NCBI RefSeq assembly: GCF_022842045.1
Contig: NZ_JALHQI010000029.1
Coordinates: forward strand, 1-36,788
DNA from: Arenimonas sp.
GTDB lineage: Bacteria; Pseudomonadota; Gammaproteobacteria; Xanthomonadales; Xanthomonadaceae
Direction of reading: 5' to 3'
Length of the DNA stretch: 36,788 nucleotides
Positions within the stretch are counted from its first letter, which is position 1. Each line of letters opens with the position of its first letter. Position numbers and translations under genes: made by a program. Under the pieces are notes generated by a model. It had not been told where the DNA came from and did not search any database. It saw only the letters and a list, made by a program, of their open reading frames with translations. Below, in pieces: positions 2,712 through 27,321 of this stretch.

Positions 2712-3601
2712 CAAGTTTCCAGTGCAGAAGGATCGGGGTCGCCGGCCAGCCAGGCGTGGGCGTCGGGGAGCGGCGCGTCGGTGTGGCGGCCGAGGGCGGC
2801 GAAGTCGAACAGGCTGGCGTCGGCCAGCTGCGAGGGTCGCACGTCGGCCAGGGCCTTGGCGATGGTTTCGATGCGGCCCGGGCTTTCCTTCTCCCACGCG
2901 GCCAGCATTCTTCCTACCTGCTTGCGCTGCAGGTTCTCCTGCGAGCCGCACAGGGTGCAGGGGATGATGGGGAACTGCTTCCAGTCGGCGTAGTCGACCA
3001 GGTCGGCTTCGCGGCAGGTGATCAGCGGGCGGATCACCACGTGTTCGCCGTCATCGCTGGCCAGCTTCGGCGGCATCGAGGCCAGCTTGGCGTGGTGGAA
3101 CAGGTTCATGAAGAACGTGGCCACCAGGTCGTCGCGGTGGTGGCCGAGCGCGATCTTGGTGAAGCCATTTTCCTTGGCGTGCCGGTACAGCGCGCCGCGG
3201 CGCAGGCGCGAGCACAGCGAGCACATGGTCTTGCCTTCCGGCACCACGCGCTTGACCACCGAGTAGGTGTCCTGCTCGATGATGGTGAAGGGCACGCCGA
3301 TCGAGCGCAGGTAGTCGGGCAGCACGTGTTCCGGGAAGCCGGGCTGCTTCTGGTCGAGGTTCACCGCCACCAGTTCGAAGCGCACGGGCGCCTTCTTCTG
3401 CAGCTGCAGCAGGACATCGAGCATGGTGTAGCTGTCCTTGCCGCCCGACAGGCACACCATCACCTTGTCGCCCTCCTCGATCATCCCGTAGTCGGCGATG
3501 GCCTGGCCCACCTGGCGGCGCAGCCGCTTGGCCAGCTTGTGGCGCTCGTGGCTGGCCTTGCGGGGGATCGGGTCGTGGAGGGGCAGCGTCATGGCGGCCA
3601 T
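2711..3601 (-). CDS. ttcA: tRNA 2-thiocytidine biosynthesis protein TtcA
   Basis: 296 residues. TtcA thiolates cytidine 32 of certain tRNAs, using ATP and a [4Fe-4S] cluster. The PP-loop SGGKDS is at about residues 52-57. Two CxxC pairs (MCSLC and CTLCGSQ) supply cluster ligands, and [14 protein letters not shown] is the other family hallmark. The first residues ([15 protein letters not shown]) allow an alternative start at the second Met, three codons in. rdgC follows with overlapping stop and start. The divergent DUF465 gene begins 45 bases away, so both promoters must lie in that short gap. Confidence 0.96.
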
Positions 3602-3645
3602 TTTACCTATGGAAGGGGTAAGCTTTGGGGCAACCGGAGACGCCG

Positions 3646-3852
3646 ATGGCCGACGAAGACCTTGCCAGGATTGCCGCGCAGCTGGTCGAACTGAAGGTCG
3701 AGCACCGCGACCTCGACGAGGTGATCGGCCGGCTCGCCGCCAGCATCGAGGCCGACGAGCTCGCCATCAAGCGCCTGAAGAAGCGCAAGCTCAAGATCAA
3801 GGACATGATCGCCGCGCTCGAAAGCCGGCTGATCCCCGACCTCGACGCCTGA
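3646..3852 (+). CDS. YdcH/DUF465 family small coiled-coil protein
   Basis: 68 residues beginning [13 protein letters not shown]. The sequence is almost wholly helical, with a heptad-like pattern, and contains the DUF465 core '[15 protein letters not shown]...[13 protein letters not shown]'. ATG at 3646 is preferred over an upstream in-frame start at 3625, because a good ribosome site (CCGGAGA, 3634-3640) lies just before it and the family begins there. The biochemical role of YdcH-type proteins is not established. The gene converges on plsB, and a perfect hairpin spans both stop codons. Confidence 0.85.
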
Positions 3853-3867
3853 GCCGCGGGCTCAGGC
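3847..3867. terminator. bidirectional hairpin across two stop codons
   Basis: A perfect 9-bp stem (gcctgagcc / ggctcaggc) with a 3-base loop covers the TGA of the DUF465 gene (3850-3852) and the stop of plsB (3862-3864). No long T tract follows on either strand, so strong intrinsic termination is uncertain. The placement between convergent genes fits a shared terminator. Confidence 0.5.
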
Positions 3868-6420
3868 CTCGGTCGAGCCCGTTTTCGCCGGCAGCGCCAC
3901 CTGGGTGCTGGTCGCGCGGCTCACCGCCTCGGGCGAAAGCTTGGAAATGGTGTGGCGCAGGTCGCGGCCCAGCACCACCTTGGCGTCCTTCTCCCAGACC
4001 ATCATCTGCTCGTCGAAGTCGAGCTTGCCGTCCGGGCAGATCCACACCAGCTTCAGTTCGCGCAGCTTCTGGATGAAGCCTCGGAACAGCGACTTGTCGA
4101 AGAACTCCGGCGCGGCCGGCGCGTACAGCAGGCTCAGGCGCTGGGCGGTCAGCTGGCACAGGGTCTCGAGCTCGCCCGCGCTGAGCGTGCGCGGCCCGTT
4201 CTTCACCAGCGTGGTGATGGCGATGAAGTAGCGCTCGAACGCCTGCTGCAGGCTGTGCGAGATCACGCGCAGGCGGAAGACCTCGTCGGTCTGCCCCGGG
4301 CCACGCGTGAGGTAGCCGCCCTCGTCCTCGCTGGCGACGCTGAGCAGGCCTTCGGCCACGAACAGGTCCAGCGTGGCGTCCAGGCGCTCGGCGAACTCCT
4401 CCGGCGTCCACGGCAGGAACAGCTCGTCCTGCACGAAGGGATAGATGGTGCGCCCCAGCCGCAGCAGGCCGGCGCGGCTCATGCGGCGGTTGTTCTGGAA
4501 GCACAGCGCCACCCAGCTCGCGGCCGCGAACAGGTGCAGCACGTTGTTGCGGAAGTAGCTCTGCAGCACCGCCGTCTCGCCCTCGATGCTGATCACGTCG
4601 CCCAGCGGGTGCACGGTGCGGGTCAGCACGCCGATCTTCTGGCCGTAGGCGATCATCTCGGCCGGCTCCATCGCGGTGACGGTGACGCGGTCGGAATACG
4701 GCAGCTTCGCCAGCAGCTTCTTCGACAGCGCCAGCTGCGCCAGCAGGTCAGCCTCGGACATCGCGTGCTTGGGCGTGGCCAGCAGGGCCAGGGCCAGCAG
4801 GTTCACCGGGTTCACGTCGGCGGCGCGGTTGATGTTGACCTGGATCTGCTGGGCCAGCTCGGCCACGGCCGGGTTGATCCAGGTGGGCTTGTCTTCGGGG
4901 TCGGCGTTGCGCTCGCGCCAGTCCGGTGCGTGCCGGGCCAGCACGTCGTCCAGGAAGATCGGCTCGCCGAAGTTCACCGCGACCTTGCCATAGTGCTGGC
5001 GCAGGATGCCGGCGCCGGCCTTGACCAGCGCCCAGATGGTTTCCTTTTCCTTGGGCTGGCCGGTCAGCTCGTCGAGGTAGCTCTTGCCTTCGATCAGCTT
5101 CTCGTAGCCGATGTACACCGGCTGGAACACCACCGGCCGCCGCGGCGCGCGCAGGAAGGCCTTGATGGTCATCACGATCATGCCGCCCTTGGGCTGCAGC
5201 AGGCGGCCGGTGCGCGAGCGCCCGCCCTCGATGAAGTATTCGAGCGAGAAGCCTTCGCCGACCAGCTGCGCCACGTACTCGCCCAGCACCGCCGCGTAGA
5301 GCGCGTTGCCCTTGATCGAGCGGCGGATGAAGAAGGCGCCGCCACGGCGCAGGATCGGCCCGATCACCGGCATGTTGAGGTTGATGCCGGCCACGATGTG
5401 CGGCGGCACGATGCCGCGCGTGTACAGCAGGTAGCTCAGCAGCAGGTAGTCCATGTGGCTGCGGTGGCAGGGCACGTAGACCACTTCGTGCCCGGGCGCG
5501 ACCTGCTTGAGCGTGTCGAGGTGGTTGACGTTGACGCCGTCGTAGATGCGGTTCCAGAAGCCGGTGAGCGCGAACGAGGCCGAGCGCACCACCGGGTTGG
5601 AATAGTCGGCGGCGATTTCCCAGGCGAAGCGGTGCGCCTTCTTCCAGGCCTCGAGGTATTCGGTGCCGTCCTTGCGGGCCTGGTCGGTGATCGACTTGCG
5701 CACTGGCTCGGCGTCCAGCACCCGGTCCACCAGCAGGCGGCGGGTGGACAGGTCGGGGCCGATGACCGCGGTCTTGATGCGGCGGAAGTGGGCACGCAGC
5801 ACGCGGCTGACCTTGCGCACCTGGCGTTCGTGCGGCAGCTCTTCGCCCAGGATTTCCCAGACACGCACGCCGGGCGAGAATTGCACCACGGTGTCGCGGC
5901 CGTTGAGCAGGATCGCCAGCAGGCGGCGGAAGCGGCCGACCAGGGCCCAGTTCTCCGAGAACAGCACCGAGAACCAGCCCGACTGCCGCGCCGGGGCCCG
6001 GCCGACGAAGATCGACACCGGCACCAGCTGCACGTCCTGGTCCGGGTACAGGCGGTGCGCCATCAGCAGTCGCGAGAGCGCGTCGGAGTGGCTGCGGTTC
6101 TTGGGCCGCCCGAACAGGCCGGCGCGCCGGCGCGACAGCGCCACGTAGGCGCGCTTGCGGCCGAGCGGGTCGCCCGGCAGCGCGGCCAGCGGCGAGGGCA
6201 GGCCGGCTTCGCGGCAGGCACGGTCCAGGATCAGGGTGTTCGACAGCCCGTAGGTCTCGATGACGTAGCAGATCGGGCGGTCGAGGTCGAAGGGCGGCGT
6301 GGCCGGCTCGCGGTGGATCTCGATCCAGGGCTGCAGCAGCTTTTCAATGAAGCGCGCCCACAGGGGCGGCTTCGCGGTCGGGCGCGGCGGCGGGGCGGCC
6401 GGGGAGGGTGTGGCATCCAT
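3862..6420 (-). CDS. plsB: glycerol-3-phosphate 1-O-acyltransferase PlsB
   Basis: 852 residues, close to other PlsB proteins. PlsB transfers an acyl chain from acyl-CoA or acyl-ACP to glycerol-3-phosphate at the inner membrane, the first step of phospholipid synthesis. The acyltransferase block HRSHMD (HX4D) is near residue 320. It is followed by GINLNMPVIGPILRRGGAFF and FIEGGRSRTGRLL, the other conserved PlsB blocks. The frame is open far upstream, but the ATG at 6420 gives a natural N-terminus (MDATPSPAAPPPRP) and clears the neighbouring lipoprotein. That lipoprotein ends 14 bases upstream on the same strand, so the two are likely co-transcribed. Confidence 0.95.
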   Translation of the reverse strand: MDATPSPAAPPPRPTAKPPLWARFIEKLLQPWIEIHREPATPPFDLDRPICYVIETYGLSNTLILDRACREAGLPSPLAALPGDPLGRKRAYVALSRRRAGLFGRPKNRSHSDALSRLLMAHRLYPDQDVQLVPVSIFVGRAPARQSGWFSVLFSENWALVGRFRRLLAILLNGRDTVVQFSPGVRVWEILGEELPHERQVRKVSRVLRAHFRRIKTAVIGPDLSTRRLLVDRVLDAEPVRKSITDQARKDGTEYLEAWKKAHRFAWEIAADYSNPVVRSASFALTGFWNRIYDGVNVNHLDTLKQVAPGHEVVYVPCHRSHMDYLLLSYLLYTRGIVPPHIVAGINLNMPVIGPILRRGGAFFIRRSIKGNALYAAVLGEYVAQLVGEGFSLEYFIEGGRSRTGRLLQPKGGMIVMTIKAFLRAPRRPVVFQPVYIGYEKLIEGKSYLDELTGQPKEKETIWALVKAGAGILRQHYGKVAVNFGEPIFLDDVLARHAPDWRERNADPEDKPTWINPAVAELAQQIQVNINRAADVNPVNLLALALLATPKHAMSEADLLAQLALSKKLLAKLPYSDRVTVTAMEPAEMIAYGQKIGVLTRTVHPLGDVISIEGETAVLQSYFRNNVLHLFAAASWVALCFQNNRRMSRAGLLRLGRTIYPFVQDELFLPWTPEEFAERLDATLDLFVAEGLLSVASEDEGGYLTRGPGQTDEVFRLRVISHSLQQAFERYFIAITTLVKNGPRTLSAGELETLCQLTAQRLSLLYAPAAPEFFDKSLFRGFIQKLRELKLVWICPDGKLDFDEQMMVWEKDAKVVLGRDLRHTISKLSPEAVSRATSTQVALPAKTGSTEA

Positions 6421-13450: not shown

Positions 13451-13496
13451 AAGCCCTTGTTCCGAAGCAAATATAAGCTTGGGTAATACTAACTAT

Positions 13497-13512
13497 CAAA
13501 ACATATGTTTTG
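13497..13512. promoter_or_regulatory. 16-bp palindrome between LysR gene and aceB
   Basis: caaaacatatgttttg is a perfect palindrome, 47 bases upstream of the LysR start and 51 bases upstream of the aceB start. It stands in an AT-rich patch in otherwise GC-rich DNA. Candidate LysR operator and promoter region; the assignment is inferred from position. Confidence 0.55.
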
Positions 13513-13563
13513 TCAAAGTCCATTCCGGGGCCTAGGTTCGGTCCATCGAATCCCTCAGGAGTC

Positions 13564-15189
<1,626 letters not shown>

Positions 15190-15196
15190 GCCACTC

Positions 15197-15230
15197 CCCT
15201 CTCCCCGGCCCTCTCTCCAAGGGGAGAGGG
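15197..15230. repeat. hairpin between aceB and aceA
   Basis: ccctctcccc (15197-15206) pairs perfectly with ggggagaggg (15221-15230), loop of 14 bases. This type of 'ctctcccc' palindrome is a common intergenic repeat in GC-rich gammaproteobacteria. Its place between aceB and aceA may reduce read-through or stabilise the upstream message. Confidence 0.6.
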
Positions 15231-15275
15231 AGAAAAACTCTTGCCCCTCCTACCTCACTACCAAGGAACGACGAC

Positions 15276-16580
<1,305 letters not shown>

Positions 16581-16706: not shown

Positions 16707-17726
16707 GTGATCCCCGTTGATCTCCCCGGCAGCCAGGCCCTCTCCGTCGCCTCCGGCGGCGGCGAAGCCCGGCTTCCCTCGCAGCTGTCGCCCGAAGAAT
16801 TCCGCGTCCTGGCCGGCGCCGGGGTCAGTCGGGCGGTGCTGCCCGGCGAGGAGCTCTTCCGGCGCGGCGAGTCGGCGCAGAGCATGTTCCTGATCGATAC
16901 CGGCGAAGTGCGGCTCGGCTTCGACGACGGCCTGGCCGACAAGCTGCTCGGCCCCGGCCAGTATTTCGGCGAGCTGGCGGTGTTCATCGGCCGCCACCAG
17001 CGCTTCGCGCGCGCCGTGGCCGAAACCCCCGGCGTGCTCTACGAAGTCACCCAGCAGGCCTTCCAGGCCCTGGTCGAGCGCGAGCCCGCGCACGTCGCCC
17101 GCTTCATGCAGCGCAGCTTCGCCTACCTGGTGGCCGGCGAGCACCAGCTGATCCAGCACCTCAAGCGCCGCAACGAAGACCTGATGCAGACGCTGGACAC
17201 CCTGCGCCAGACCCGCACCGAGCTCACCGTGGCCCAGCAGCTGGTGCGCACCGACGACCTCACCGGCCTGGCCAACCGCCGCGGCCTGTACCGCTTCCTG
17301 GACGAACTGGGCCACCAGACCCTCACCGACCTGAAGCTGGCGCTGCTGCTGGTCGATATCGACCACTTCAAGCAGATCAACGACCGCAGCGGCCACCTGG
17401 CCGGCGACGCCGCCCTGCGCGCCGTGGCCGAGGAAGTGCGCCGCACGGCCGGCCCGATCGAGCTGCCCTGCCGCCTGGGCGGCGACGAATTCGCCCTGGT
17501 GCTGCGCGTGAGCGACGACGGCGAGCTCGCCAACCGCGCCCTGGGCCTGATGAGCGCGATCCGCAGCCTGCGCCTGCCCAGCCTGCGCGAGCACCGGCTG
17601 TCGGTGAGCATTGGCGGCGCCTTCTGCGCCGACCCCGGCGGCTGGTCCACCTGGTACAGCCAGGCCGACCGCGCCCTGTACGACGCCAAGCGCCAGGGCG
17701 GCGACCACTGGCGCCTCGCCCGCTGA
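16707..17726 (+). CDS. cNMP-binding domain / GGDEF diguanylate cyclase
   Basis: 339 residues with two domains. Residues about 28-145 form a CRP-like cyclic-nucleotide-binding barrel (ELFRRGESAQSMFLIDTGEVRLGF, PGQYFGELAVFIGRHQRFARAVAE). Residues about 175-335 are a GGDEF domain with TDDLTGLANRRGLYRFL, DIDHFKQIND and an intact GGDEF. The RSA/RTA pair that contacts cyclic phosphate in CRP is replaced by QRFA, so classical cAMP binding is doubtful. The RxxD inhibitory site five residues before GGDEF is absent (GPIE), so product inhibition is unlikely. No membrane segment is seen. The start is GTG at 16707. It precedes the cyclase gene by 63 bases. Confidence 0.88.
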   Translation: MIPVDLPGSQALSVASGGGEARLPSQLSPEEFRVLAGAGVSRAVLPGEELFRRGESAQSMFLIDTGEVRLGFDDGLADKLLGPGQYFGELAVFIGRHQRFARAVAETPGVLYEVTQQAFQALVEREPAHVARFMQRSFAYLVAGEHQLIQHLKRRNEDLMQTLDTLRQTRTELTVAQQLVRTDDLTGLANRRGLYRFLDELGHQTLTDLKLALLLVDIDHFKQINDRSGHLAGDAALRAVAEEVRRTAGPIELPCRLGGDEFALVLRVSDDGELANRALGLMSAIRSLRLPSLREHRLSVSIGGAFCADPGGWSTWYSQADRALYDAKRQGGDHWRLAR

Positions 17727-17789: not shown

Positions 17790-20348
17790 ATGAGCGTTCC
17801 CAAGACCCAAGTGGCCAGCAACGGATATGCGCCGTCGGTGACCCCGATGCTGCGCACCGTGCTGCTGTGCGACATCGTCGACTCCACCGCGCTGATCGAG
17901 CGGCTGGGCGACGTGCGCGCCGTGGCCCTGCTGCAGCGCCACGACCAATTGATGCGCCAGAGCCTGGCCCTGTGCCACGGCCAGCTGATCGACAAGGCCG
18001 ACGGCGTGCTGGCCCTGTTCGAGCGCCCGATCCAGGCCCTGGACTTCGCCCTGCGCTACCAGCGCGGCCTGCGCGAGGTCGGCGCCACCGAGGGCGTGGA
18101 CCTCAAGGCCCGCATCGGCATCCACGTCGGCGACGTGATGACCTGGGCCAACGAGCCCAAGGACGTGATGGCCGGCGCCAAGCCCATCGAGGTCGAAGGC
18201 CTGGCCAAGCCGGTCGCCGCGCGCCTGATGAGCCTGGCCCGCCCCGGCCAGATCCTGATGTCGGGCATGGCCCAGAACCTGTGCCAGCGCGCCGTGGGCG
18301 AACTCGGCGAGGCCGGCGCCAACCTGCGCTGGCTGATGCACGGCCGCTACAGCTTCAAGGGCGTGCCCGCGCCGATGCTGGTGCACGAAGTCGGCGAACC
18401 CGGCCTGTCGCCGCTGCGCGCGCCCGAATCCGGCGCCAAGGCCTGGCGCGAGCTGCCGCTGTGGCGGCGGCCGCCGGTGGTGGCGCTGGAAGTGCTGTTG
18501 GTCGGCGGCCTGGGCCTCGCGCTGTTCTGGACCACGGTGCGCAGCCCGCCCGCCATCGCCTTCGCCGAGCGCGACTGGGTGGTGGTGGCCGACCTGCAGA
18601 ACCGCAGCGGCGAGCCGCTGTTCGACGATTCGCTCGATACGGCGCTGCGCGTCGGCCTCGAGCAGTCGCGGCATGTGAACCTGGTGTCCGACCTGCAGAT
18701 CGACCGTGCGCTCGAGCGCATGCAGCGCCAGGGCCAGCCGGTCGATCGCCAGCTGGCCACCGAGCTCGCGCTGCGCGAGGGCGCCAAGGCCGTCATCCTG
18801 CCCACGGTCGCCCAGGTCGGCGGCGTGATGCGCGTCAGCCTGGAAGTGGTGGACCCGAACAGCGGCGTCACCGTCTACAGCGAAAGCGCCGACGGCCGCG
18901 GAGTCGAGTCGGTGCTGCCGGCCATGGACGAAGCCATCGCCAGCGTGCGCGGGCGGCTGGGCGAATCGCTGTCGAGCATCGAAGCCACCAGCGCCCCGCT
19001 CGAGAAGGTGACCACGGCGAACCTCGAGGCGCTGCGCGCGTACTCGATGGCCAACCAGGCCCTGGGCCGCGGCGATGCCCGTACTTCGCTGACCCTGCTC
19101 GATCGCGCGATCGAACTCGACCCGAACTTCGCCAGTGCCCTGATGAAGAAGGGCGCGCACTACTTCCAGGCCGACGACCTGGCGCAGGCGCGCGCGCTGA
19201 TGGAGCGCGCCGCCGCCCAGCAGGACCGGCTCAGCGCCCGCGACAAGCTCAACGTGCAGGCGCAGCTGGCCATCTTCGAAACGCCGGACCGGATGATCGA
19301 CCGCTACACCCAGCTGGCCGAGCTGTATCCGGACTTCATGACCGGGCAGCAGAACGTCGGCAACACGCTGTGGCAGTTCAAGAACGATTTCGCCGCCGCC
19401 GAGCCCTGGTACCGGCAGGTCGTCGCCAGCCGGCATCCGCTGCGTTCGCTGGCGATGACGACCACCGCGGTGATGCTGGCGGGCCAAGGCAAGCTGGAGG
19501 AAGCGGCCCGGGTTTACGAGGACCTGTCCGCCTTGGGCGGCGGTCGGCTGTTCGGCAGCGACGCCGACATCGCGCTCGCCCGTGGGCAGCACGCGCAGGC
19601 GCTGGCGGCGCTGGACAAGGGCGTCGAGCGTGATTCCCCCATCCAGCGGATCTGGAAGGGCCTGCGCCGCAGTGCCGCCCAGGCGGATCGTGGGCGCTAC
19701 CCGGAAGCCCTCGCCGAGCTTGATGCGCTGGAAGCCACGTCGGGCGTGGTGGGTTCCCCTTCCGACACCGCCCGCATCCAGCTGGCGCGGCTGGCCATCC
19801 ATGCCCGCGCCGGGGACCAGGCGGCGTTCGAGCGCTTGCTGCCGGTCTATCTCGAGGCTCAGCTGGGTCGTGTGGCCATCGCGGCCGAGCGTTACGATTT
19901 CAGCAGCGTTACGCATGCCCTGGTGGGCGGGCTGCTCGCGGTTCGCCAGGGTGAAGTGGCACGCGCGCGCGACGTCCTTGAGAAGACGCGTGCGATGAGC
20001 CTGGGTGCGGGTTATCCCGAGCGCGAAGCGCTTTGGAAGTCACTCGAGGTCGAGCTGGCCCTGGCGGAAGGCAAGCCGGACGACGTCGCCCTGGCGGACA
20101 TGGCCAAGGCCTTGGCGGCCAGCCGCTACCTGCAAGCCGACGTGGCGCGCCTGAAGGTGCTCGAGGCCGGTGATGACAAGGCGGCGGCGGCCGAGGCGGG
20201 CAAGGCGCTGTGCGCGGCCCGGGGGCAGGCGCTGTCGGAGTGGAGCTTCGGCTTCTCCTCGCTGGTGCCGAACCTGCTGGCTACGCGGGCTGCCTGCGAC
20301 GCGTATCCCGCGGCCCGTGCGGTAGCGGCGCGGCCGGCGAGGGGTTGA
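17790..20348 (+). CDS. peptide-modification-system cyclase: class III cyclase, TM, TPR
   Basis: 852 residues. Residues about 20-190 are a class III adenylate/guanylate cyclase homology domain (LLCDIVDSTALIERLGD; KADGVLALF; RIGIHVGD; AARLMSLARPGQILMSG). A membrane segment follows at about 230-252 (VVALEVLLVGGLGLALFW), then a long TPR-like region with 'AIELDPNFASALMKKGAHYFQ'. The layout matches the family named putative peptide modification system cyclase (TIGR04510, from memory). Metal-binding Asp28 and Asp71 are present. The transition-state Asn of VNxAAR is Pro141 (AKPVAARL), and the adenine-selecting Lys position is altered, so catalysis is in doubt. It converges on the leader-peptide gene. 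Confidence 0.85.
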   Translation: MSVPKTQVASNGYAPSVTPMLRTVLLCDIVDSTALIERLGDVRAVALLQRHDQLMRQSLALCHGQLIDKADGVLALFERPIQALDFALRYQRGLREVGATEGVDLKARIGIHVGDVMTWANEPKDVMAGAKPIEVEGLAKPVAARLMSLARPGQILMSGMAQNLCQRAVGELGEAGANLRWLMHGRYSFKGVPAPMLVHEVGEPGLSPLRAPESGAKAWRELPLWRRPPVVALEVLLVGGLGLALFWTTVRSPPAIAFAERDWVVVADLQNRSGEPLFDDSLDTALRVGLEQSRHVNLVSDLQIDRALERMQRQGQPVDRQLATELALREGAKAVILPTVAQVGGVMRVSLEVVDPNSGVTVYSESADGRGVESVLPAMDEAIASVRGRLGESLSSIEATSAPLEKVTTANLEALRAYSMANQALGRGDARTSLTLLDRAIELDPNFASALMKKGAHYFQADDLAQARALMERAAAQQDRLSARDKLNVQAQLAIFETPDRMIDRYTQLAELYPDFMTGQQNVGNTLWQFKNDFAAAEPWYRQVVASRHPLRSLAMTTTAVMLAGQGKLEEAARVYEDLSALGGGRLFGSDADIALARGQHAQALAALDKGVERDSPIQRIWKGLRRSAAQADRGRYPEALAELDALEATSGVVGSPSDTARIQLARLAIHARAGDQAAFERLLPVYLEAQLGRVAIAAERYDFSSVTHALVGGLLAVRQGEVARARDVLEKTRAMSLGAGYPEREALWKSLEVELALAEGKPDDVALADMAKALAASRYLQADVARLKVLEAGDDKAAAAEAGKALCAARGQALSEWSFGFSSLVPNLLATRAACDAYPAARAVAARPARG

Positions 20349-20358
20349 GGAAACGCGA

Positions 20359-20381
20359 CCGGTGGGGCGTGGCCCCACCGG
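20359..20381. terminator. hairpin between cyclase and peptide genes
   Basis: ccggtggggc (20359-20368) pairs perfectly with gccccaccgg (20372-20381) across a 3-base loop, in the 45-bp gap between convergent genes. The stem is very GC-rich. No T run follows on either strand, so termination is plausible but not certain. Confidence 0.55.
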
Positions 20382-20393
20382 CCGGTGGTCGGC

Positions 20394-20648
20394 TTACTCG
20401 ACCAGGAACCAGACCAGGCCGGCCTTGCCCGCGACCTTGCTCTTGATGGCGTCGCGGTTGGCCTTCAGCGACTCCTTGCTCGGCAGCCGGCGGATCGGCG
20501 GCACCTGCGCCGGGTCGACGTCCACGCCCATCGTATGCAGGACGAGGGCAGGGTTGCCCAGGAACTGCTCGCGGAACTGGTCATCGCTGGACAGCTTGTC
20601 CAGGAGTTCATCAACGATCTCGGGCGTGAAGCAGGACGACTTGGACAT
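20394..20648 (-). CDS. NHLP-related RiPP-like precursor peptide
   Basis: 84 residues. The N-terminal half resembles a nitrile-hydratase alpha-chain-like leader: TPEIVDELLDKLSSDDQFRE, then LGNPALVLHTMGVDVDP. The remaining tail (from about residue 47) is basic then hydrophobic, ending GLVWFLVE. The only Cys is residue 6, within the leader. It fits the putative modified peptide / NHLP-related RiPP family (TIGR04509, from memory). ATG at 20648 is chosen over one ten codons upstream because AGGGGAG lies 5-11 bases before it and the leader begins there. It is divergent from the SagB-like dehydrogenase and convergent with the cyclase, as expected for this system. Confidence 0.82.
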   Translation of the reverse strand: MSKSSCFTPEIVDELLDKLSSDDQFREQFLGNPALVLHTMGVDVDPAQVPPIRRLPSKESLKANRDAIKSKVAGKAGLVWFLVE

Positions 20649-20664
20649 GGGGCTCCCCTGGGTG

Positions 20665-20679
20665 ATTGGCGTCGCCAAT
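20665..20679. promoter_or_regulatory. 15-bp dyad between peptide and dehydrogenase genes
   Basis: attggcg-t-cgccaat is a perfect 7+1+7 dyad in the 93-bp divergent gap, ending 17 bases before the peptide start codon. Its position fits an operator controlling the peptide gene or both genes. No regulator is identified; the only local candidates are the GGDEF and cyclase proteins, which lack DNA-binding domains. Confidence 0.5.
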
Positions 20680-20741
20680 GCGACCGGGCAAGCTTAGCGC
20701 CTGCCGGTGCGAAGTCCACCACCGACCCCGCAAGGACACCC

Positions 20742-21886
20742 ATGCTGATCCGCCGCTGCGCCATCCTGGTCTTCGAGGCCCGGGAACACCTGGAGTTCGA
20801 CCTGGCCACCCTGTTCTCCGGTGAGCAGGCACTGGCGGCCGACTGCCGCTGGGTGGCGCTGGCGGCCCACCTTGATGCCGAGGTGCCGGTGTCGGACGCC
20901 GAACTGGCGCTGCTTCGGTCCGTGGGGGAATCGCTCTGGGTCGAGCGCGAGCCCCTGGACCGGGCGCATGGTCAGGACACCGTGGACGCGATGCTGCAGG
21001 CCGGCCTGCTGCTGGCCTTCGACGGGGCGGGCGCGGGTTGGCGCGAACGCGACGAGGCCGTGCGCGAAAGCCACTGGCGTCCGCTGCCGGCGCTGGCCCA
21101 CGCCTTCAGCCGCTGGAGCGGCCAGGACGTCGCCAGCGATCCGCGGCTGTCGCAGTTCAAGACCATCCGCGACATGGTGCAGGCCTTCGGCCCGCCGCCG
21201 CCGGAAACGGTCGAGCGCGCGCTGGCCGCGGCGCGGGTCGCACTGCCGCCCCCGGAAGCCGGCCCGCTGGATGGCCCGCTGATGGCCCGCTACACCGGCC
21301 GTAACTACGACCCGGCGGGCGTCGTGCCGCTGGCGGTCGCGTCGCGCCTGCTGCAGCGGACCTTCGGCGCCCAGCAGGTGCGCGAGATCGCGGAAGGCAC
21401 CGCGGCCCTGAAGAAGACCAGCCCGTCCGGCGGCAGCCTGCATCCAATCGAGGCCTACGTGCTGGTGCAGCGCGTCGAAGGCCTGGCGCCCGGCTTCTAC
21501 CACTACCACCCGGTCACGCACGCGCTGGAGCCGCTGCAGGCGCTGGCGCCCCCGGAAGCGCGCGCGCACGCGCTCGCCTTCGTCGCCGGCCAGGAGTGGT
21601 TCGCCGATGCGCCGCTGCTGGTGGTGATGGCGCCGCGCTGGCGCCGCAACTTCTGGAAGTACCGCAACCACGCCAAGGCCCACCGCGCGATCATGATGGA
21701 CGCCGGCCATCTGTCGCAGACCTTCTACCTGCTGGCGGCCGAGGCCGGGCTGCCGGCCTTCATCACCGCGGCGGTGAACGAGATCGACATCGCGGCGGCG
21801 CTGGGCCTGGATCCGATCCGCGACGGCGTCATCGCCGTCTGCGGCTGCGGGCCGGCCAGCGGTGAGCAGGTAACCGTGGAGTACCG

Positions 21887-21890
<4 letters not shown>
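20742..21890 (+). CDS. SagB-like putative peptide maturation dehydrogenase
   Basis: 382 residues. The first ~190 residues form a domain with no motif I recognise. The rest is a SagB/ThcOx-type nitroreductase-fold FMN oxidoreductase: ARYTGRNYDP, KKTSPSGGSLHPIEAYVLV, YHYHPVTHALEPL, WKYRNHAKAHRAIMMDAGH, QTFYLLAAEAGLPAF. SagB enzymes oxidise azolines to azoles in peptide maturation. Here no YcaO cyclodehydratase is nearby, so the substrate step is unknown. It matches the putative peptide maturation dehydrogenase family (TIGR04511, from memory). ATG at 20742 has AAGGA (20732-20736). The stop shares CTAG (21887-21890) with the convergent comM remnant. Confidence 0.87.
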
Positions 21891-22548
<658 letters not shown>

Positions 22549-22668
22549 TGACATTTCCAGAAGTCTTCGCGACCATCGGGCCAAGGAGGCCCGAAATGAC
22601 GCCAGAGACCGCACATCAGTTGAAGCGACTTCAAACCTTACTGGCTGCGACTTCTTATAGTTTTCCAG
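22549..22668. repeat. candidate transposon left end with repeated motifs
   Basis: GCGACTTC occurs at 22625-22632 and again at 22647-22654, exactly 22 bases apart, the length of a TnsB site in Tn7. tttccag occurs at 22554-22560 and 22662-22668. The motifs lie partly inside the tnsA reading frame. They could be TnsB-binding sites overlapping the gene, but the motifs are short. Confidence 0.3.
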
Positions 22669-23369
22669 CAGAAGATGCGAAAGGCTTCCCAAACTTGCTC
22701 CCAGCCGCCAGAAAGATAGGTTTAGGCCGCCGGTCGCTGACCGGAATGATGACGTCCGGCGCGAAGGTAGAGGGTCCCGGCCCCTTCGAATCCGCCTTGG
22801 AGCGGGACTACTTCGTCCTCCTCGAGTTCGACCAGCAGGTCTCGGTCTGGCATCCCCAGCCCGCCGAAGTGACCGGGCCCGCTGCTGGCCGGTCGGGAAA
22901 CCAGAAGTACTACCCGGACGTCCTGGTTGAACGGATTGAGACCGTGAACGGCGAGCCGACCCAGCGGGCGGAGCTGTGCGAGATCAAGTATCGGGAGGAA
23001 ATCTTCCGGAAATGGGTCACCCTCAAGCCCAAGTTCAAAGCCTGCCGCCGCTACGCCCGCCAGCGGGGCTGGCGGTTCCGGATTCTCACCGAGGTTGAGA
23101 TTCGGACCCCGCGGCTGGCCAATGCCAAGTTCCTTCTCCCTTACTCGCGTCGGGATACCGACTGGATCCTGGAGCACCAGGTGATGGAGTCGGTCCGCGC
23201 CTTGGGCGAAACGACCATTCACCAGTACATGGCCTCGCTGCCAGGCAGCCAGTGGGACAAGGCAGCGGTACTGCCGGTTGTGTACTACCTGATCTGCAGG
23301 GGTGAGATCGTGGCGAACCTGGATCAACCGCTGACGCCACAGTCTCCGATCCGTGCCGTCGACCAGTAG
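22596..23369 (+). CDS. tnsA: TnsA-like transposon endonuclease
   Basis: 257 residues. Tn7 TnsA cuts the 5' ends of the element so that it moves by cut-and-paste. The PD-(D/E)XK-type residues are visible: FESALERD (E65), YYPDVLV (D108) and CEIKYRE (E129, K131). Tn7 TnsA has QVK where this protein has EIK. A C-terminal domain follows (LPYSRRDTDWILEH...). ATG at 22596 has an excellent ribosome site, AAGGAGG (22583-22589). The gene starts only about 47 bases inside the element, very close to the end. The next gene overlaps it by 17 bases. Confidence 0.9.
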   Translation: MTPETAHQLKRLQTLLAATSYSFPAEDAKGFPNLLPAARKIGLGRRSLTGMMTSGAKVEGPGPFESALERDYFVLLEFDQQVSVWHPQPAEVTGPAAGRSGNQKYYPDVLVERIETVNGEPTQRAELCEIKYREEIFRKWVTLKPKFKACRRYARQRGWRFRILTEVEIRTPRLANAKFLLPYSRRDTDWILEHQVMESVRALGETTIHQYMASLPGSQWDKAAVLPVVYYLICRGEIVANLDQPLTPQSPIRAVDQ

Positions 23370-25290
23370 CTCGACGGCGCCAGAGAATCCGCTGGCTATC
23401 GGCGGAGTCTTCGTCCTTCGTGGCGACACCTACCTGGTCGACGGTTATCTCGACCTGACCCATCTCATCGCGCGTCGAGAAAGCGACGGCCAGAAGGTGC
23501 GGCTGATCATTGCCGACATCCTGGATGCTATTGCCACTCCCCCATCGACCTCAACCCCTGACGAGGAAACAGCGTCTTCGAGCGGCACGGAAACCCTGTC
23601 AAAAGAAGACTGGGATATCGCGGTAGCGCGAAGCGAGAAGCTCAAGACGCTGGTGGAGGCAAAGCGGCCATCAAAGAAACTGGCCGCCGAGGTGGCCACG
23701 TTCTTCGGCGTCCATGTCAGCACCATCTATCGCTGGCTCAAGCGGGAGCAGGAGAAAGGCATTGCAGCGCTGGCGCCGCTACACCCCAGCGGTGGGCGTG
23801 GCAGATCGCGGCTAAACGACATCCTTGACGATGTCATCTGGGCGGCCATCGAAGAGCACTACCTGACCGACAAGAAAATGCGGATCTCGAAGGTCATGAC
23901 GATTCTGGGGCCGAAGTGCCGCCGCGCGAATCTGAAAGTACCGCACGCCAATACCGTCAGGCTTCGCGTGTCTTGGCTCTCTGACAAGACGAAGGATGAG
24001 GCCCGCGACGGGGAGCGAGGCCGGAAGCGGCACCGGCCCGTGCCGGGCTCCTACAAGGAAGCGACCCACCCGAACTCTGTCTGGCAGATCGATCACACGC
24101 CCCTGGATCTGTGCATCGTCGATGATGTCTATCGTCGCAACATTGGCCGGGCGTGGCTGACGCTGGTCATCGACGTCTACAGTCGCTGCGTCGTGGGCTT
24201 CTACCTCTCGCTAGACAAGCCCAACGCGACCTCGGTTGGCATGGCCCTGGTCCACGCCATCCTGCCCAAGGAAGGCTGGCTGGCGGCGCATGGCATCGAC
24301 GTCAAATGGCCCAACTGGGGCAAGCCGATCAAGGTTCACGCTGACAACGACAAGACATTCCGATGCGACATGGTCACTCGGGCGGCGATGGCGCAGAAGT
24401 TTGACCTGGAGTGGCGGCCAGTCAAGACGCCGCACTGGGGTGGACACATCGAGCGGCTCCTTGGCACGCTCAATCAGGAAATCCACACCATCAACGGGAC
24501 GACCTTCTCAAACCCTACCCAGCGAGGCGACTACAAATCGCACGAAGAAGCCGAGTTCACCTTCTCCGACTCAGAAACCTATGTCACCAAGTATCTGTGC
24601 GGCGTGTATCACCAAAGCAAGCATGACGGTATCGGCCGCCCGCCGATCCGGATGTACGAGTCCGGAATTCTTGGCGATGCTCACACCCTAGGTACGGGCC
24701 TGCAAGCGCCGATCAAGGATCCGATGCGACTGCGGCTGGACTTTCTCCCATTCAAGGAAGTGACCGTCCAAGCCTATGGCGTCACCTGGGACACCATCAC
24801 CTACTACGACCCGAGCATCGATCATTGGATTCATGCCCGGGATCCGGAGACAGGCAGGAAGCGGCGATTCACTGTTCGGCGGGACCCCCGGGATCTGAGT
24901 TCGATCTGGTTTCTGGACCCCGACCGCGACGTCTATCTAAAAATTCCGTACCGGCGCATGGAGCACCCTTCGCTCAACCTGTGGGAGCTGCGAGAGGTCA
25001 GAGCGCACCTGCGAGCCCAAGGCAAGGAAGAGGTTGATGAGGACCTCGTGTTTGATACCTACGAGGAGCTCCAGCGGATCAAGAATAATGCGAGCGATGA
25101 GACCAAGGAAGCCCGTAAGCGAGATCAGAAGAAGCGAACCTACGAAAAGAAGAAGGCTGCTGAAGCCGCACAAGTAGGCGCTGCCACCCCCGCCAGCCAG
25201 CAAGCGCCGCCCAGCAGGCCCGCCAACACGAACGGCCTGCTGGAGGACGACGAGGAGATATCGTCCTTCGAGGTTGTGCGCGGTGGCTGA
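23353..25290 (+). CDS. tnsB: TnsB/TniA-type DDE transposase
   Basis: 645 residues. An N-terminal helix-turn-helix region (AAEVATFFGVHVSTIYRWLKRE) leads to a retroviral-integrase-type core. QIDHTPLD gives the first Asp (near residue 247), HADND the second (near 330) and GGHIERLLGTLNQEIH the Glu (near 367); the D-to-E spacing is about 35. A Mu-type C-terminal beta barrel and a charged KKAAEAAQ tail follow, the latter expected to touch TnsC. GTG at 23353 overlaps tnsA, giving translational coupling. The protein joins the element's 3' ends to target DNA. Confidence 0.92.
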   Translation: MPSTSSSTAPENPLAIGGVFVLRGDTYLVDGYLDLTHLIARRESDGQKVRLIIADILDAIATPPSTSTPDEETASSSGTETLSKEDWDIAVARSEKLKTLVEAKRPSKKLAAEVATFFGVHVSTIYRWLKREQEKGIAALAPLHPSGGRGRSRLNDILDDVIWAAIEEHYLTDKKMRISKVMTILGPKCRRANLKVPHANTVRLRVSWLSDKTKDEARDGERGRKRHRPVPGSYKEATHPNSVWQIDHTPLDLCIVDDVYRRNIGRAWLTLVIDVYSRCVVGFYLSLDKPNATSVGMALVHAILPKEGWLAAHGIDVKWPNWGKPIKVHADNDKTFRCDMVTRAAMAQKFDLEWRPVKTPHWGGHIERLLGTLNQEIHTINGTTFSNPTQRGDYKSHEEAEFTFSDSETYVTKYLCGVYHQSKHDGIGRPPIRMYESGILGDAHTLGTGLQAPIKDPMRLRLDFLPFKEVTVQAYGVTWDTITYYDPSIDHWIHARDPETGRKRRFTVRRDPRDLSSIWFLDPDRDVYLKIPYRRMEHPSLNLWELREVRAHLRAQGKEEVDEDLVFDTYEELQRIKNNASDETKEARKRDQKKRTYEKKKAAEAAQVGAATPASQQAPPSRPANTNGLLEDDEEISSFEVVRGG

Positions 25291-26179
25291 GGACCATCTG
25301 AGCGCCGAAACACGCGCGATGCTGGGCCGCCCGGCAGCCGAGCGTTTGGCTTGGTTTCAGACCGAGTTCTGGATCAAGTACCCGGCGTCCGACGCCATCC
25401 TGGCTCGATTGGAAGAGCTTGTGAACAAGCCGCGCCGGGCGCGCATGCCGGGATATTTGGTTACGTCGGAATCGAACAACGGCAAGACATCAATCGCTAT
25501 GAGATTTGCCGGCCTCCACCCGCCGGTCTTCTCCGAAGCCGATAACAAGATGCAAATGCCAGTGATGCTGCTGGAGGTCGTTCCTACGCCGACCGAGGCA
25601 GCCATTATTGAGCGCATTCTCTCGATCTTGGGGATTCCCTACCGGCTCACCGATCCCGTGCCCGACAAGCGCGAGGCCGCCATCGTCGCGATGCGTAACG
25701 CCGGCCTGCAGTTGTTGATGCTGGACGAGCTTCAGAAGATTCTTGGCGCCCGACTCGAACAGCGCAGAGCCGTGATGGACGCATTGCGGTACATCGCCAA
25801 CCAGGTGCCCGTGCCCGTAGTGGCCTTCAGCACACCCCGCGGCACCGGGGGCCTGGCATCGTCAGACGAAATGATCAACCGACTTCGGCCGCTCACATTG
25901 CCCACGTGGAAGCTGGATGCTGACTTCCAGCGACTGCTGCTGTCTTTCGAGGAGCACATGCCGCTGCCGGAGCGTTCGGGCCTGGGCAAGAAGGCAATGG
26001 CGGCCCTGATCCACACGTTGTCCGAGGGCCTCGTGGGCGAAGTCTACGACTTGCTCGAGCTGGCGCTCAGTGTGGCGATCGCCTCAGACGCCCCGCGGAT
26101 TGACGAGGCCCTCCTCCGAGGTCTGGCCTGGACGCCCCCGTCAGACCGCAAACGCTTGGCCCGTGCCGCCACGCCGTGA
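25283..26179 (+). CDS. tnsC: TnsC/TniB-type AAA+ ATPase
   Basis: About 298 residues. Walker A is SESNNGKTS (residues about 62-70), the TniB form, and Walker B is LQLLMLDELQ. Sensor-like segments FSTPRGTGG and MINRLRPLTLPTW follow. TniB/TnsC proteins polymerise on target DNA and link target selection to the transposase. A start at GTG 25283 overlaps the tnsB stop by 8 bases; a TTG at 25274 would add three codons. The C-terminus overlaps tniQ (GTGA). Confidence 0.9.
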   Translation: MAEDHLSAETRAMLGRPAAERLAWFQTEFWIKYPASDAILARLEELVNKPRRARMPGYLVTSESNNGKTSIAMRFAGLHPPVFSEADNKMQMPVMLLEVVPTPTEAAIIERILSILGIPYRLTDPVPDKREAAIVAMRNAGLQLLMLDELQKILGARLEQRRAVMDALRYIANQVPVPVVAFSTPRGTGGLASSDEMINRLRPLTLPTWKLDADFQRLLLSFEEHMPLPERSGLGKKAMAALIHTLSEGLVGEVYDLLELALSVAIASDAPRIDEALLRGLAWTPPSDRKRLARAATP

Positions 26180-27321
26180 GGGTCCGCGGCAATCGCTGGG
26201 CCAGTGTTCCGCCGCCTCAACCAGACGAACTGATGTCTTCCTGGCTCCATAGGCTGGCCCGAGCCAACGGCCGCTCGGACCACACGCTGTGCTCAATGAT
26301 GTTCGGGGCAGTCCCGTTGCTGAACCGCGACCTCGATCTGACCATGCCCGTTGCATTGCTACCCGTGCTCTCGAAATGGACGGGCATTTCCGAGTACCGG
26401 TTGTCGGAACTCCTGTTGACGACGATCCAGGGCAAGGTCACCGGCGAAAGCCGGACCGGGACAGTCTGTCGATGGGTGCTTCCCCTGGGTGTTTACCACC
26501 GGGTACGCCGGCACCATGGACTTCAATACTGTCCGCAATGCTTGGCGGAACCCATCGCATACGCTCGAAAGCAGTGGCGCTACGCGTTCGTGACCGAGTG
26601 CCTGGAGCATGAGCGCCCTCTGTTCGACCGGTGCCCCACGTGCGCGTCTCCCTTCATGTTTCACCGGATGCATCCGGATCGCGGGCAACGCTGGGGCTGC
26701 GCGACTTGCGGCGAGGCCCTGAACACGCCAGATGCCAGTGCCGGGTCAAAATACCTACTGCGACGACAGCAGGCGCGACTCGTGGCCGCGGCCGGCAGCG
26801 GCGGAGCACGCATGAACTGCCGCTGGGTCAGCTCGCTGACGCTGTTCAATGGGTACCGGTTTCTCGTGCACACCCTCACCTCATCGCGTTTGAAGCACCT
26901 GGCGAACACGGCAATCATCGACCGGGACGGCACGTTGCGGCCCTCTGGGACGCACACAGAGTTCGAGCGTATGGGGGTCTACTTGAGGAGGCCGATCATG
27001 CTCGCGCTGGCCACGTGGATGACCGATTGGCCGGATCGCTTTCTGCGAGACGTGCGGTCGTCTTGTTCAAGCCGGTCGGTACTGATTGGGGATCGGCGGC
27101 ACATCCCGTTCTGGATTCAGGAGGTGCTCGATACCTTGCCCACGGCCCAGCCCCACCGACTGACATCACAGGAAGTTCAAAGCTGCGCGCGGTGGCTCCG
27201 AGCCGGCGGCCAGGCCATCAGCTTTGATGGGCTGTGCAGGGCCCTCTCACTTTCCACCTGGGAACGAATGCTTCCCGCGAACAGGGTGCTCTTGGGAGAG
27301 GGCGTGTCCGGGCTGGACTGA
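26176..27321 (+). CDS. tniQ: TniQ/TnsD-family target-selection protein
   Basis: 381 residues. PPPQPDELMSSWLHRLARANGRS at the N-terminus is the TniQ signature. Two zinc-binding clusters follow: YCPQC...CLEHERPLFDRCPTC and WGCATCGEAL. TniQ/TnsD proteins choose the target site; in this element the comM junction suggests a sequence-specific DNA-binding role for the C-terminal part. The GTG start overlaps the tnsC stop. It is a single TniQ, with no second TnsD-like or TnsE-like gene in the window, and no CRISPR components. Convergent with the Xre-type gene. Confidence 0.9.
   Translation: MRVRGNRWASVPPPQPDELMSSWLHRLARANGRSDHTLCSMMFGAVPLLNRDLDLTMPVALLPVLSKWTGISEYRLSELLLTTIQGKVTGESRTGTVCRWVLPLGVYHRVRRHHGLQYCPQCLAEPIAYARKQWRYAFVTECLEHERPLFDRCPTCASPFMFHRMHPDRGQRWGCATCGEALNTPDASAGSKYLLRRQQARLVAAAGSGGARMNCRWVSSLTLFNGYRFLVHTLTSSRLKHLANTAIIDRDGTLRPSGTHTEFERMGVYLRRPIMLALATWMTDWPDRFLRDVRSSCSSRSVLIGDRRHIPFWIQEVLDTLPTAQPHRLTSQEVQSCARWLRAGGQAISFDGLCRALSLSTWERMLPANRVLLGEGVSGLD

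Follow-up and report, generated by a model that had tools for sequence, protein, structure and literature searches.

What does a short ribosomal peptide, accompanied by a single flavin enzyme, do beside a membrane-bound nucleotide cyclase? The question is posed by a 36,788-nucleotide stretch of Arenimonas sp. DNA (contig NZ_JALHQI010000029.1), referred to here in its full length as the window, in which positions 17790 to 21890 had been described preliminarily as a modification set for a ribosomally synthesized and post-translationally modified peptide (RiPP), made up of a cyclase, a peptide with a leader and a SagB-like dehydrogenase. The three open reading frames were found at those positions, and hidden Markov model (HMM) searches placed their adjacent products above the curated NCBIfam cut-offs of the families that had been named for them, TIGR04510, TIGR04509 and TIGR04511, with one above-cut-off match to each in the window's genome. 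The layout is also as described, the cyclase and peptide genes being convergent and the peptide and dehydrogenase genes divergent. A fourth gene had been overlooked: it lies immediately upstream of the cyclase gene, is conserved with it, and encodes a protein with a cyclic nucleotide monophosphate (cNMP)-binding domain and a GGDEF domain. Rather than a RiPP modification set of three genes, it is better understood as a signaling module in which two genes serve peptide maturation. We propose, at what we would call even odds, that a single SagB-type flavin enzyme modifies the peptide, which then acts as ligand for membrane receptors that can be exchanged and as an input to a pathway leading from cyclic guanosine monophosphate (cGMP) to cyclic dimeric GMP (c-di-GMP). 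The features concerned are as follows.

16707-17726, forward strand: cNMP-binding domain and GGDEF diguanylate cyclase, counterpart of XC_0249 of Xanthomonas campestris; start codon uncertain (GTG at 16707)
17790-20348, forward strand: predicted one-span membrane sensor of the guanylate cyclase type, counterpart of XC_0250; TIGR04510, 806 bits (cut-off 400)
17841-18389, forward strand: class III cyclase catalytic domain (residues 18-200), from Foldseek and profile search
18477-18533, forward strand: single predicted transmembrane segment (residues 230-248), N terminus predicted inside; mean hydropathy 2.09
18552-19004, forward strand: conserved post-membrane alpha/beta domain (residues 255-405), from the secondary structure of the model
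19017-20327, forward strand: tetratricopeptide repeat (TPR) sensor domain (residues 410-846), predicted periplasmic; TPR_16, 35.7 bits
20394-20648, reverse strand: 84-residue precursor peptide with NHLP-like leader; TIGR04509, 59.9 bits (cut-off 34)
20397-20438, reverse strand: C-terminal tail of the peptide, KVAGKAGLVWFLVE, probably the core that is modified; devoid of Cys, Ser and Thr
20649-20741, no strand: divergent intergenic region between the peptide and dehydrogenase genes, 93 bp
20742-21890, forward strand: SagB-type flavin mononucleotide (FMN) dehydrogenase; TIGR04511, 517 bits (cut-off 240)
21657-21662, forward strand: invariant Lys306-Tyr307 of the WKYR motif

The first step toward an answer is the identity of the cyclase. 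In the window it stands beside the cNMP-GGDEF gene (Pfam cNMP_binding, 60 bits, and GGDEF, 117 bits; searches were run with the sequence from 16725 on), and this two-gene neighborhood and domain layout, a cyclase-transmembrane-TPR protein next to a cNMP-GGDEF protein, are shared with XC_0250 and XC_0249 of Xanthomonas campestris (Xcc). As reported in the parts of An et al. 2013 (PMC3770947) that are drawn on here, the cyclase domain of XC_0250 converts GTP, not ATP, to cGMP; XC_0249 binds cGMP with a dissociation constant of 0.29 μM, its diguanylate cyclase activity being raised by the nucleotide; mutation of either gene leads to less biofilm formation and virulence; and the two proteins influence biofilm and many genes in Xcc. 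The steps from GTP through cGMP to c-di-GMP are established for the homologue in the same source, where the cyclase domain of XC_0250 alone was able to restore biofilm formation, in keeping with regulation by the remainder of that protein. The authors describe its TPR part as uncharacterised, as does a 2019 review (PMC8042644, also drawn on in part), and the text of PMC3770947, to the extent consulted, contains no word beginning with "peptide." Because the gene pair of the window matches XC_0249/XC_0250, the cyclase most likely makes cGMP and does not modify peptides, and it is on this point that the idea of a RiPP-like modification set has to be revised, its families and linkage having held.

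The predicted structure of the cyclase (mean predicted local distance difference test score, pLDDT, of 89.3) runs from the class III catalytic domain through one predicted membrane span and an alpha/beta domain to a long TPR array. A Pfam scan of the protein gave no cyclase-domain match at E ≤ 0.001; the assignment comes from Foldseek, where the top eight matches of the catalytic domain were Rv1900c and Ma1120 (TM score by target length 0.83-0.88), and from a profile search (5d0g_A, Ma1120, 6e-20). Of the six residues required in XC_0250, D41, D71, A150 and A161 are present at the same numbers. Since most of the key residues are kept and those at 73 and 157 are changed, the window protein likely, though not certainly, gives cGMP. 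A span of this kind, with more lysine and arginine before it than after it, is present in every one of 48 family members aligned, and because positive charge is heavier before the span, the TPR part is placed outside by this prediction from hydropathy and charge. The alpha/beta domain, which may be FlgO/TolB-like, is conserved, its majority-residue fraction averaging 0.73 over residues 255-410, and variability within the protein is highest in the TPR part (0.47 over residues 410-600 and 0.42 over 600-852, versus 0.70 for the catalytic domain).

For the cNMP domain, the closest chain among the matches listed was PDB 5h5o_A, with 40% identity over 123 residues; the accession given for the XC_0249 structure, 4KG1 (PMC3770947, in the part consulted), was not among them. 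The residue spacing of 5h5o_A matches F73, E90, L91, H98, V142, N145 and E146 of XC_0249 exactly, and because these residues fit the numbering of the paper, the chain was taken as the same domain. The cGMP contacts F73, E90, L91, H98 and E146 are retained in the window protein and, across 79 aligned family members, in all 78 rows having a residue. An N-E pair in the linker to the GGDEF domain (residues 150-151 of the window protein) was considered as the cGMP diad and ruled out, the 5h5o alignment pointing to a G-E pair earlier in the helix.

The association of the two genes was followed through two sets of loci, which overlap in genomes, so that their counts are not independent: a first set (L004-L083), in which 80 loci were retained after a scan that used only the dehydrogenase, and a second (L101-L151). 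Locus counts of peptide, cyclase, cNMP-GGDEF and propeller genes rest on HMM searches. The first set includes 29 loci of an Oxalobacteraceae type (L007-L033, L050 and L074, with L032 labeled Burkholderiaceae), considered below; outside these the cyclase is present in 50 of 51 loci, the remaining one, L083, ending inside a partial match. The cNMP-GGDEF gene accompanies the cyclase in 47 of these 50 loci, the other three (L051, L071 and L081) ending at a contig edge, and in 38 of 44 loci of the second set; it was counted as present in L053, L101, L108 and L113, where the cyclase frame extends far upstream. A catalytic signature (D28 D41 D68 D71 G72 K131 E134 K140 R145 A150) is full in 87 of 97 cyclase matches. 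Among the ten incomplete ones, two (L132 and L135) have a single conservative change and retain the neighboring gene, and four are truncated or without the domain (L071 and L081, cut by the contig, and second matches of L068 and L116). The last four (L134, L139, L143 and L145, from three genomes, L134 and L145 sharing G073) have altered catalytic residues and no cNMP-GGDEF gene in the upstream stretch, a joint loss subject to the caveats that the change in L134 is merely D41 to E and that L142, the sister copy of L143 in genome G059, retains the cNMP-GGDEF gene. A second TIGR04510-like protein, with span and TPR and no cyclase domain, follows the dehydrogenase in L116 (6740-8857) and L068 (10888-13005).

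Does the peptide belong to this signaling pair? The preliminary description had named two findings whose absence would refute it, conserved co-occurrence in related genomes and purifying selection on the peptide, and both were obtained. Among 200 genomes of the order, TIGR04510, TIGR04509 and TIGR04511 were each above cut-off in 43, and these were the identical 43 genomes; sub-cut-off matches to TIGR04510, common enough to occur in 190 of the 200 at E ≤ 0.001, were not counted. In a wider sample of 398 genomes of the phylum, TIGR04511 was above cut-off in eight, and because all eight come from the same order, this sample overlooked the Oxalobacteraceae that carry the family. The peptide was found by HMM in 77 of the 80 first-set loci, with L083 adding a weak candidate. 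Its ratio of nonsynonymous to synonymous substitution rates (dN/dS) was below 1 in all 193 usable pairs (of 211 compared; a synonymous difference, pS, of at least 0.15 and dS <1.5 were required), with a median of 0.21, and in all of the 29 disjoint pairs among them; the window peptide gave 0.27 against that of L005. Selection extends to the last 14 residues, where the nonsynonymous difference, pN, averaged 0.09 versus a pS of 0.45, the latter being raised because only pairs with a tail pS above 0.05 were averaged. Compared with its nearest relatives, the tail of the window peptide shows weaker constraint (pN 0.24 to 0.40, pS 0.42 to 0.73).

A further observation comes from the Oxalobacteraceae-type loci. 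All 29 contain the dehydrogenase and 27 the peptide, and none contains the cyclase; TIGR04510 was above cut-off in none of the 25 genomes searched (all but those of L010, L019, L026 and L032), weak sub-cut-off matches occurring in 23 of them. In its place a propeller sensor adjoins the peptide/dehydrogenase pair in 28 of the 29 loci (27 by HMM, and L026 by Pfam Reg_prop), the exception, L019, stopping at a contig edge. The output domain of the sensor, scanned in three loci, is that of a hybrid kinase in L009 and L024 (Reg_prop/Y_Y_Y/histidine kinase/receiver) and a GGDEF domain in L031 (Reg_prop/Y_Y_Y/GGDEF), where the sensor occupies the position held elsewhere by the cyclase. Because these loci swap the cyclase for a propeller sensor, the peptide/dehydrogenase pair appears as the constant part of the system and the signaling protein as the exchangeable one. 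The inheritance of peptide and dehydrogenase together with a sensor related to a known cGMP-making enzyme suggests, short of proof, that the peptide in its modified form contributes to the input of bacterial cGMP signaling.

The pattern of divergence within the cyclase is consistent with such a role. In a comparison of 54 loci (from 59, after removal of those within 5% of another dehydrogenase; loci without any one of the five genes were excluded beforehand), peptide distance correlated with that of the TPR domain, with catalytic domain, aceA and ggd as controls (r 0.40, 0 of 999 permutations as high), and not at all with that of the 255-405 domain (r -0.01); for the dehydrogenase and the TPR domain, r was 0.54. 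In L129 a full cassette of peptide, dehydrogenase and cyclase occurs twice, with a single cNMP-GGDEF gene in the stretch; between its two cyclases, identity is 71% for the catalytic domain and 29% for the TPR domain. One of these cassettes has the peptide and dehydrogenase that, among those compared, are closest to those of the window.

What, then, might the flavin enzyme do? The dehydrogenase scores 116 bits against the SagB domain model TIGR03605 (cut-off 78.4), and its predicted structure (pLDDT 92.2) matches McbC, ThcOx and BmdC. The WKYR motif was found in 124 of 124 dehydrogenase matches, and its Lys-Tyr, invariant across 58 aligned sequences, we take to be the catalytic pair of SagB/McbC-type enzymes. 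Since its first residue is already included when the model is aligned to BmdC and ThcOx, the enzyme may plausibly bind the leader through an N-terminal domain; VIA-align rows mainly span model residues 166-382, the N-terminal match depending on the BmdC and ThcOx rows alone. YcaO, absent from the neighborhood according to the preliminary description, proved to be absent from the window's entire genome (94.9% complete) and from 41 of the 43 genomes with the system; in the other two it lies on a different contig, in G199 beside a different, sub-cut-off dehydrogenase match. Azole formation is excluded for the window's tail because it lacks Cys, Ser and Thr. The enzyme probably modifies the peptide, and alpha,beta-desaturation of hydrophobic residues is the chemistry favored by analogy. 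AlbA, a cyclodipeptide oxidase, carries out such a desaturation, on another substrate and with a Z score no higher than that of other nitroreductases in the same list, so that the likeness is one of analogy only. As the preliminary description had anticipated, the open-licence literature yielded no description of the product or chemistry of TIGR04509, TIGR04510 or TIGR04511, in a search that left subscription papers mostly outside; the only passage naming any of these families concerned a SagB-like enzyme in graspetide loci (PMC8939145, seen in part). Related dehydrogenases below the cut-off (L146-L151) had no peptide or cyclase HMM match nearby; among nine of their neighbors scanned were AurF-like genes in L146 and L148, possibly reflecting another use of the fold, and major facilitator superfamily genes in L148 and L149.

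The peptide is related to NHLP/proteusin precursors through TIGR04509 only, its match to the leader model TIGR03793 being 22.3 bits, under the cut-off of 50.9. When the tails of 137 distinct peptides (of 144 from both locus sets) were compared, ten, the window's included, were without Cys, Ser and Thr; no single residue was common to all, and among the classes counted only V/I/L/F/M/W was present in every tail. The statement that no export gene lies nearby was not contradicted at the locus, and it has to be qualified for the genome, in which a C39-peptidase ATP-binding cassette (ABC) transporter of another contig (TIGR03796, 480 bits, cut-off 853) makes an export route possible, though unlinked. 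Variant loci were also seen. L137, L138, L140, L141 and L144 have a more distant dehydrogenase (TIGR04511, 285-312 bits), encoded on the other strand from the cyclase, and peptides of 78-97 residues with VF/IF-type tails at the end; L139 (genome G091) has five near-identical tandem peptide genes (3226-5411), a broken cyclase signature and no cNMP-GGDEF gene in the stretch.

The proposed sequence of events is the following. The SagB-type enzyme would bind the 84-residue precursor through its NHLP-like leader and, with no YcaO, would oxidize (dehydrogenate) residues in the hydrophobic C-terminal tail, which would then be trimmed and leave the cytoplasm. Outside, it would be read by the large extracytoplasmic TPR domain of the adjacent one-span protein, with a resulting change in the activity of the cytoplasmic guanylate cyclase domain; the cGMP formed would bind the cNMP domain of the neighboring cNMP-GGDEF protein, raising c-di-GMP, with effects on biofilm and gene expression. 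Support at the level of sequence comes from the families, their co-occurrence, purifying selection on the peptide, the absence of YcaO, the kept catalytic and most cGMP-contact residues, the replacement of the sensor, and the covariation of peptide and TPR domain. More tentatively, and as something possible rather than probable, the system may be a Gram-negative peptide hormone: a ribosomal peptide, desaturated by a SagB-type flavin enzyme without YcaO, to which a one-span receptor guanylate cyclase would respond as its dedicated ligand, the receptor in Oxalobacteraceae being a propeller protein with histidine kinase or diguanylate cyclase output. Ligand and maturation enzyme would then form a portable cassette that can be fitted to different receptors and that supplies the missing input of the cGMP to c-di-GMP pathway.

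A number of observations weigh against the proposal. Of its steps, the action of the dehydrogenase on the peptide, the desaturation, cleavage and export, and the binding of the peptide by the TPR domain are inferred. On the peptide side, there is no GG anywhere in the 84 residues to serve as a double-glycine cleavage site, no secretion signal is visible by eye in peptide or dehydrogenase, and the only C39 peptidase match of the genome is unlinked to the module. L025 has a dehydrogenase and a propeller sensor and no detectable peptide. On the signaling side, the window has V for L73 and M for L157 of XC_0250, positions at which alanine abolished activity (PMC3770947, in the part drawn on), and G for the contact N145 of XC_0249, a position that is N in 45, S in 27 and G in 6 of the 79 aligned members; L128 and L131 combine a full cyclase signature with no cNMP-GGDEF gene in the stretch examined. 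Peptide distance also correlated significantly with that of the catalytic domain (r 0.24, 1 of 999 permutations), and the TPR domain and peptide have the largest mean distances (0.73 and 0.69, versus 0.37 for the catalytic domain), a variability that can by itself favor their correlation. Finally, the TPR domain of the window-type cassette in L129 is 30% identical to that of the window, no closer than to others.

The main rival holds that the peptide is an effector product (an antibiotic, a siderophore-like compound or a redox cofactor) and that the sensor/cyclase or sensor/kinase only times its production or protects the producer. We regard this as unlikely, though some observations favor it: RiPP clusters often come with regulators of their own, the sensor varies between families as the peptide/dehydrogenase pair stays, and the five peptide copies of L139 with their broken cyclase signature resemble product dosage. 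However, no other gene family adjoins the pair in both locus groups, as far as can be said from a gene table that missed some genes and left rarer families unannotated, so that a lineage-specific exporter or immunity gene could still be present. Covariation with the TPR domain of the receptor also fits a ligand better, and in Xcc the effects of XC_0250 and XC_0249 extend to biofilm and to many genes (PMC3770947, as seen in part).

Rather less probable is an intracellular redox switch, in which the flavin enzyme would sense the redox or electron-acceptor state and the modified peptide, never exported, would regulate the cyclase or kinase as a small subunit. The lack of a visible secretion signal and of an exporter alongside would be explained at once, as would the covariation with the catalytic domain and a conserved leader that is longer than the tail. 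Against this, the variable part of the cyclase, which tracks the peptide, is predicted to lie outside, a location generally ascribed also to propeller/Y_Y_Y domains in sensors of that kind.

Plain conservation of a neighborhood beside metabolic genes, with peptide part and cyclase functionally unlinked, would account for the genes that we take for aceA and aceB and that flank the cluster in many loci, but seems very improbable given that the same pair adjoins a signaling protein amid the other gene surroundings of the Oxalobacteraceae-type loci, that above-cut-off presence is all-or-none across the 200 genomes, and that in L129 the three genes occur as a unit in two copies. A thiazole/oxazole-modified microcin (TOMM)-type azole or azoline pathway with its YcaO encoded elsewhere, to which the above-cut-off SagB domain and the azoline oxidases among the closest solved structures might point, can be set aside with near certainty, the genome survey having found no YcaO to serve it in the window's genome or in 41 of the 43, and the composition of the tail ruling it out for the window's peptide.

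The surroundings of the module deserve brief mention. It is preceded in the window (13477-16577) by genes that we take, from their sequences, to encode malate synthase and isocitrate lyase; similar genes precede it in many related loci, and a metabolic tie is possible. On its other side (21890-27318) lies what is presumably comM, which a Tn7-like group of genes (TnsA-like, Mu-type transposase, TniB and TniQ) interrupts near 22552, directly beside the module; the comM of relatives aligns in the window solely over its 3′ part. A CRP-like box with at most two mismatches occurs in 9 of 51 peptide/dehydrogenase intergenic regions versus 3.3% of simple shuffles, and the window's own 93-bp region has no such site better than three mismatches. 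A tblastn search of a plasmid collection gave no match to the peptide.

If ligand and receptor are indeed what the module encodes, the purpose of the TIGR04509 peptide and the input of the cGMP cyclase would both be answered, in a genetically established bacterial cGMP pathway whose TPR domain is uncharacterised and whose signal is unnamed in the consulted parts of PMC3770947 and PMC8042644. It would also mean that bacteria have a receptor guanylate cyclase with a peptide ligand, and that there is SagB-type chemistry that needs no azoline. How this relates to known systems can be stated more closely. The window proteins are direct members of the NCBIfam "putative peptide modification system" of TIGR04509, TIGR04510 and TIGR04511, but those models put the cyclase within peptide modification, whereas here it appears as a replaceable signaling protein. 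The window differs from the described XC_0249/XC_0250 in that a peptide and a dehydrogenase are tied to the cyclase. With the enzymes of TOMM/SagBCD pathways, the cyanobactin oxidases (McbC and ThcOx being the oxidases compared) and the non-ribosomal peptide synthetase oxidase BmdC, the window enzyme has the fold and the Lys-Tyr pair in common; it differs from TOMM/SagBCD in a genome without YcaO and a tail unable to form azoles. The RRNPP receptors of Gram-positive bacteria also use TPRs to read hydrophobic peptides, but are cytoplasmic regulators, whereas the TPR domain of the window is predicted to be outside. A parallel in architecture is provided by the receptor guanylate cyclases of animals, which likewise combine one span, an extracellular ligand domain and a cytoplasmic guanylate cyclase, a likeness of layout that does not imply homology outside the cyclase domain.

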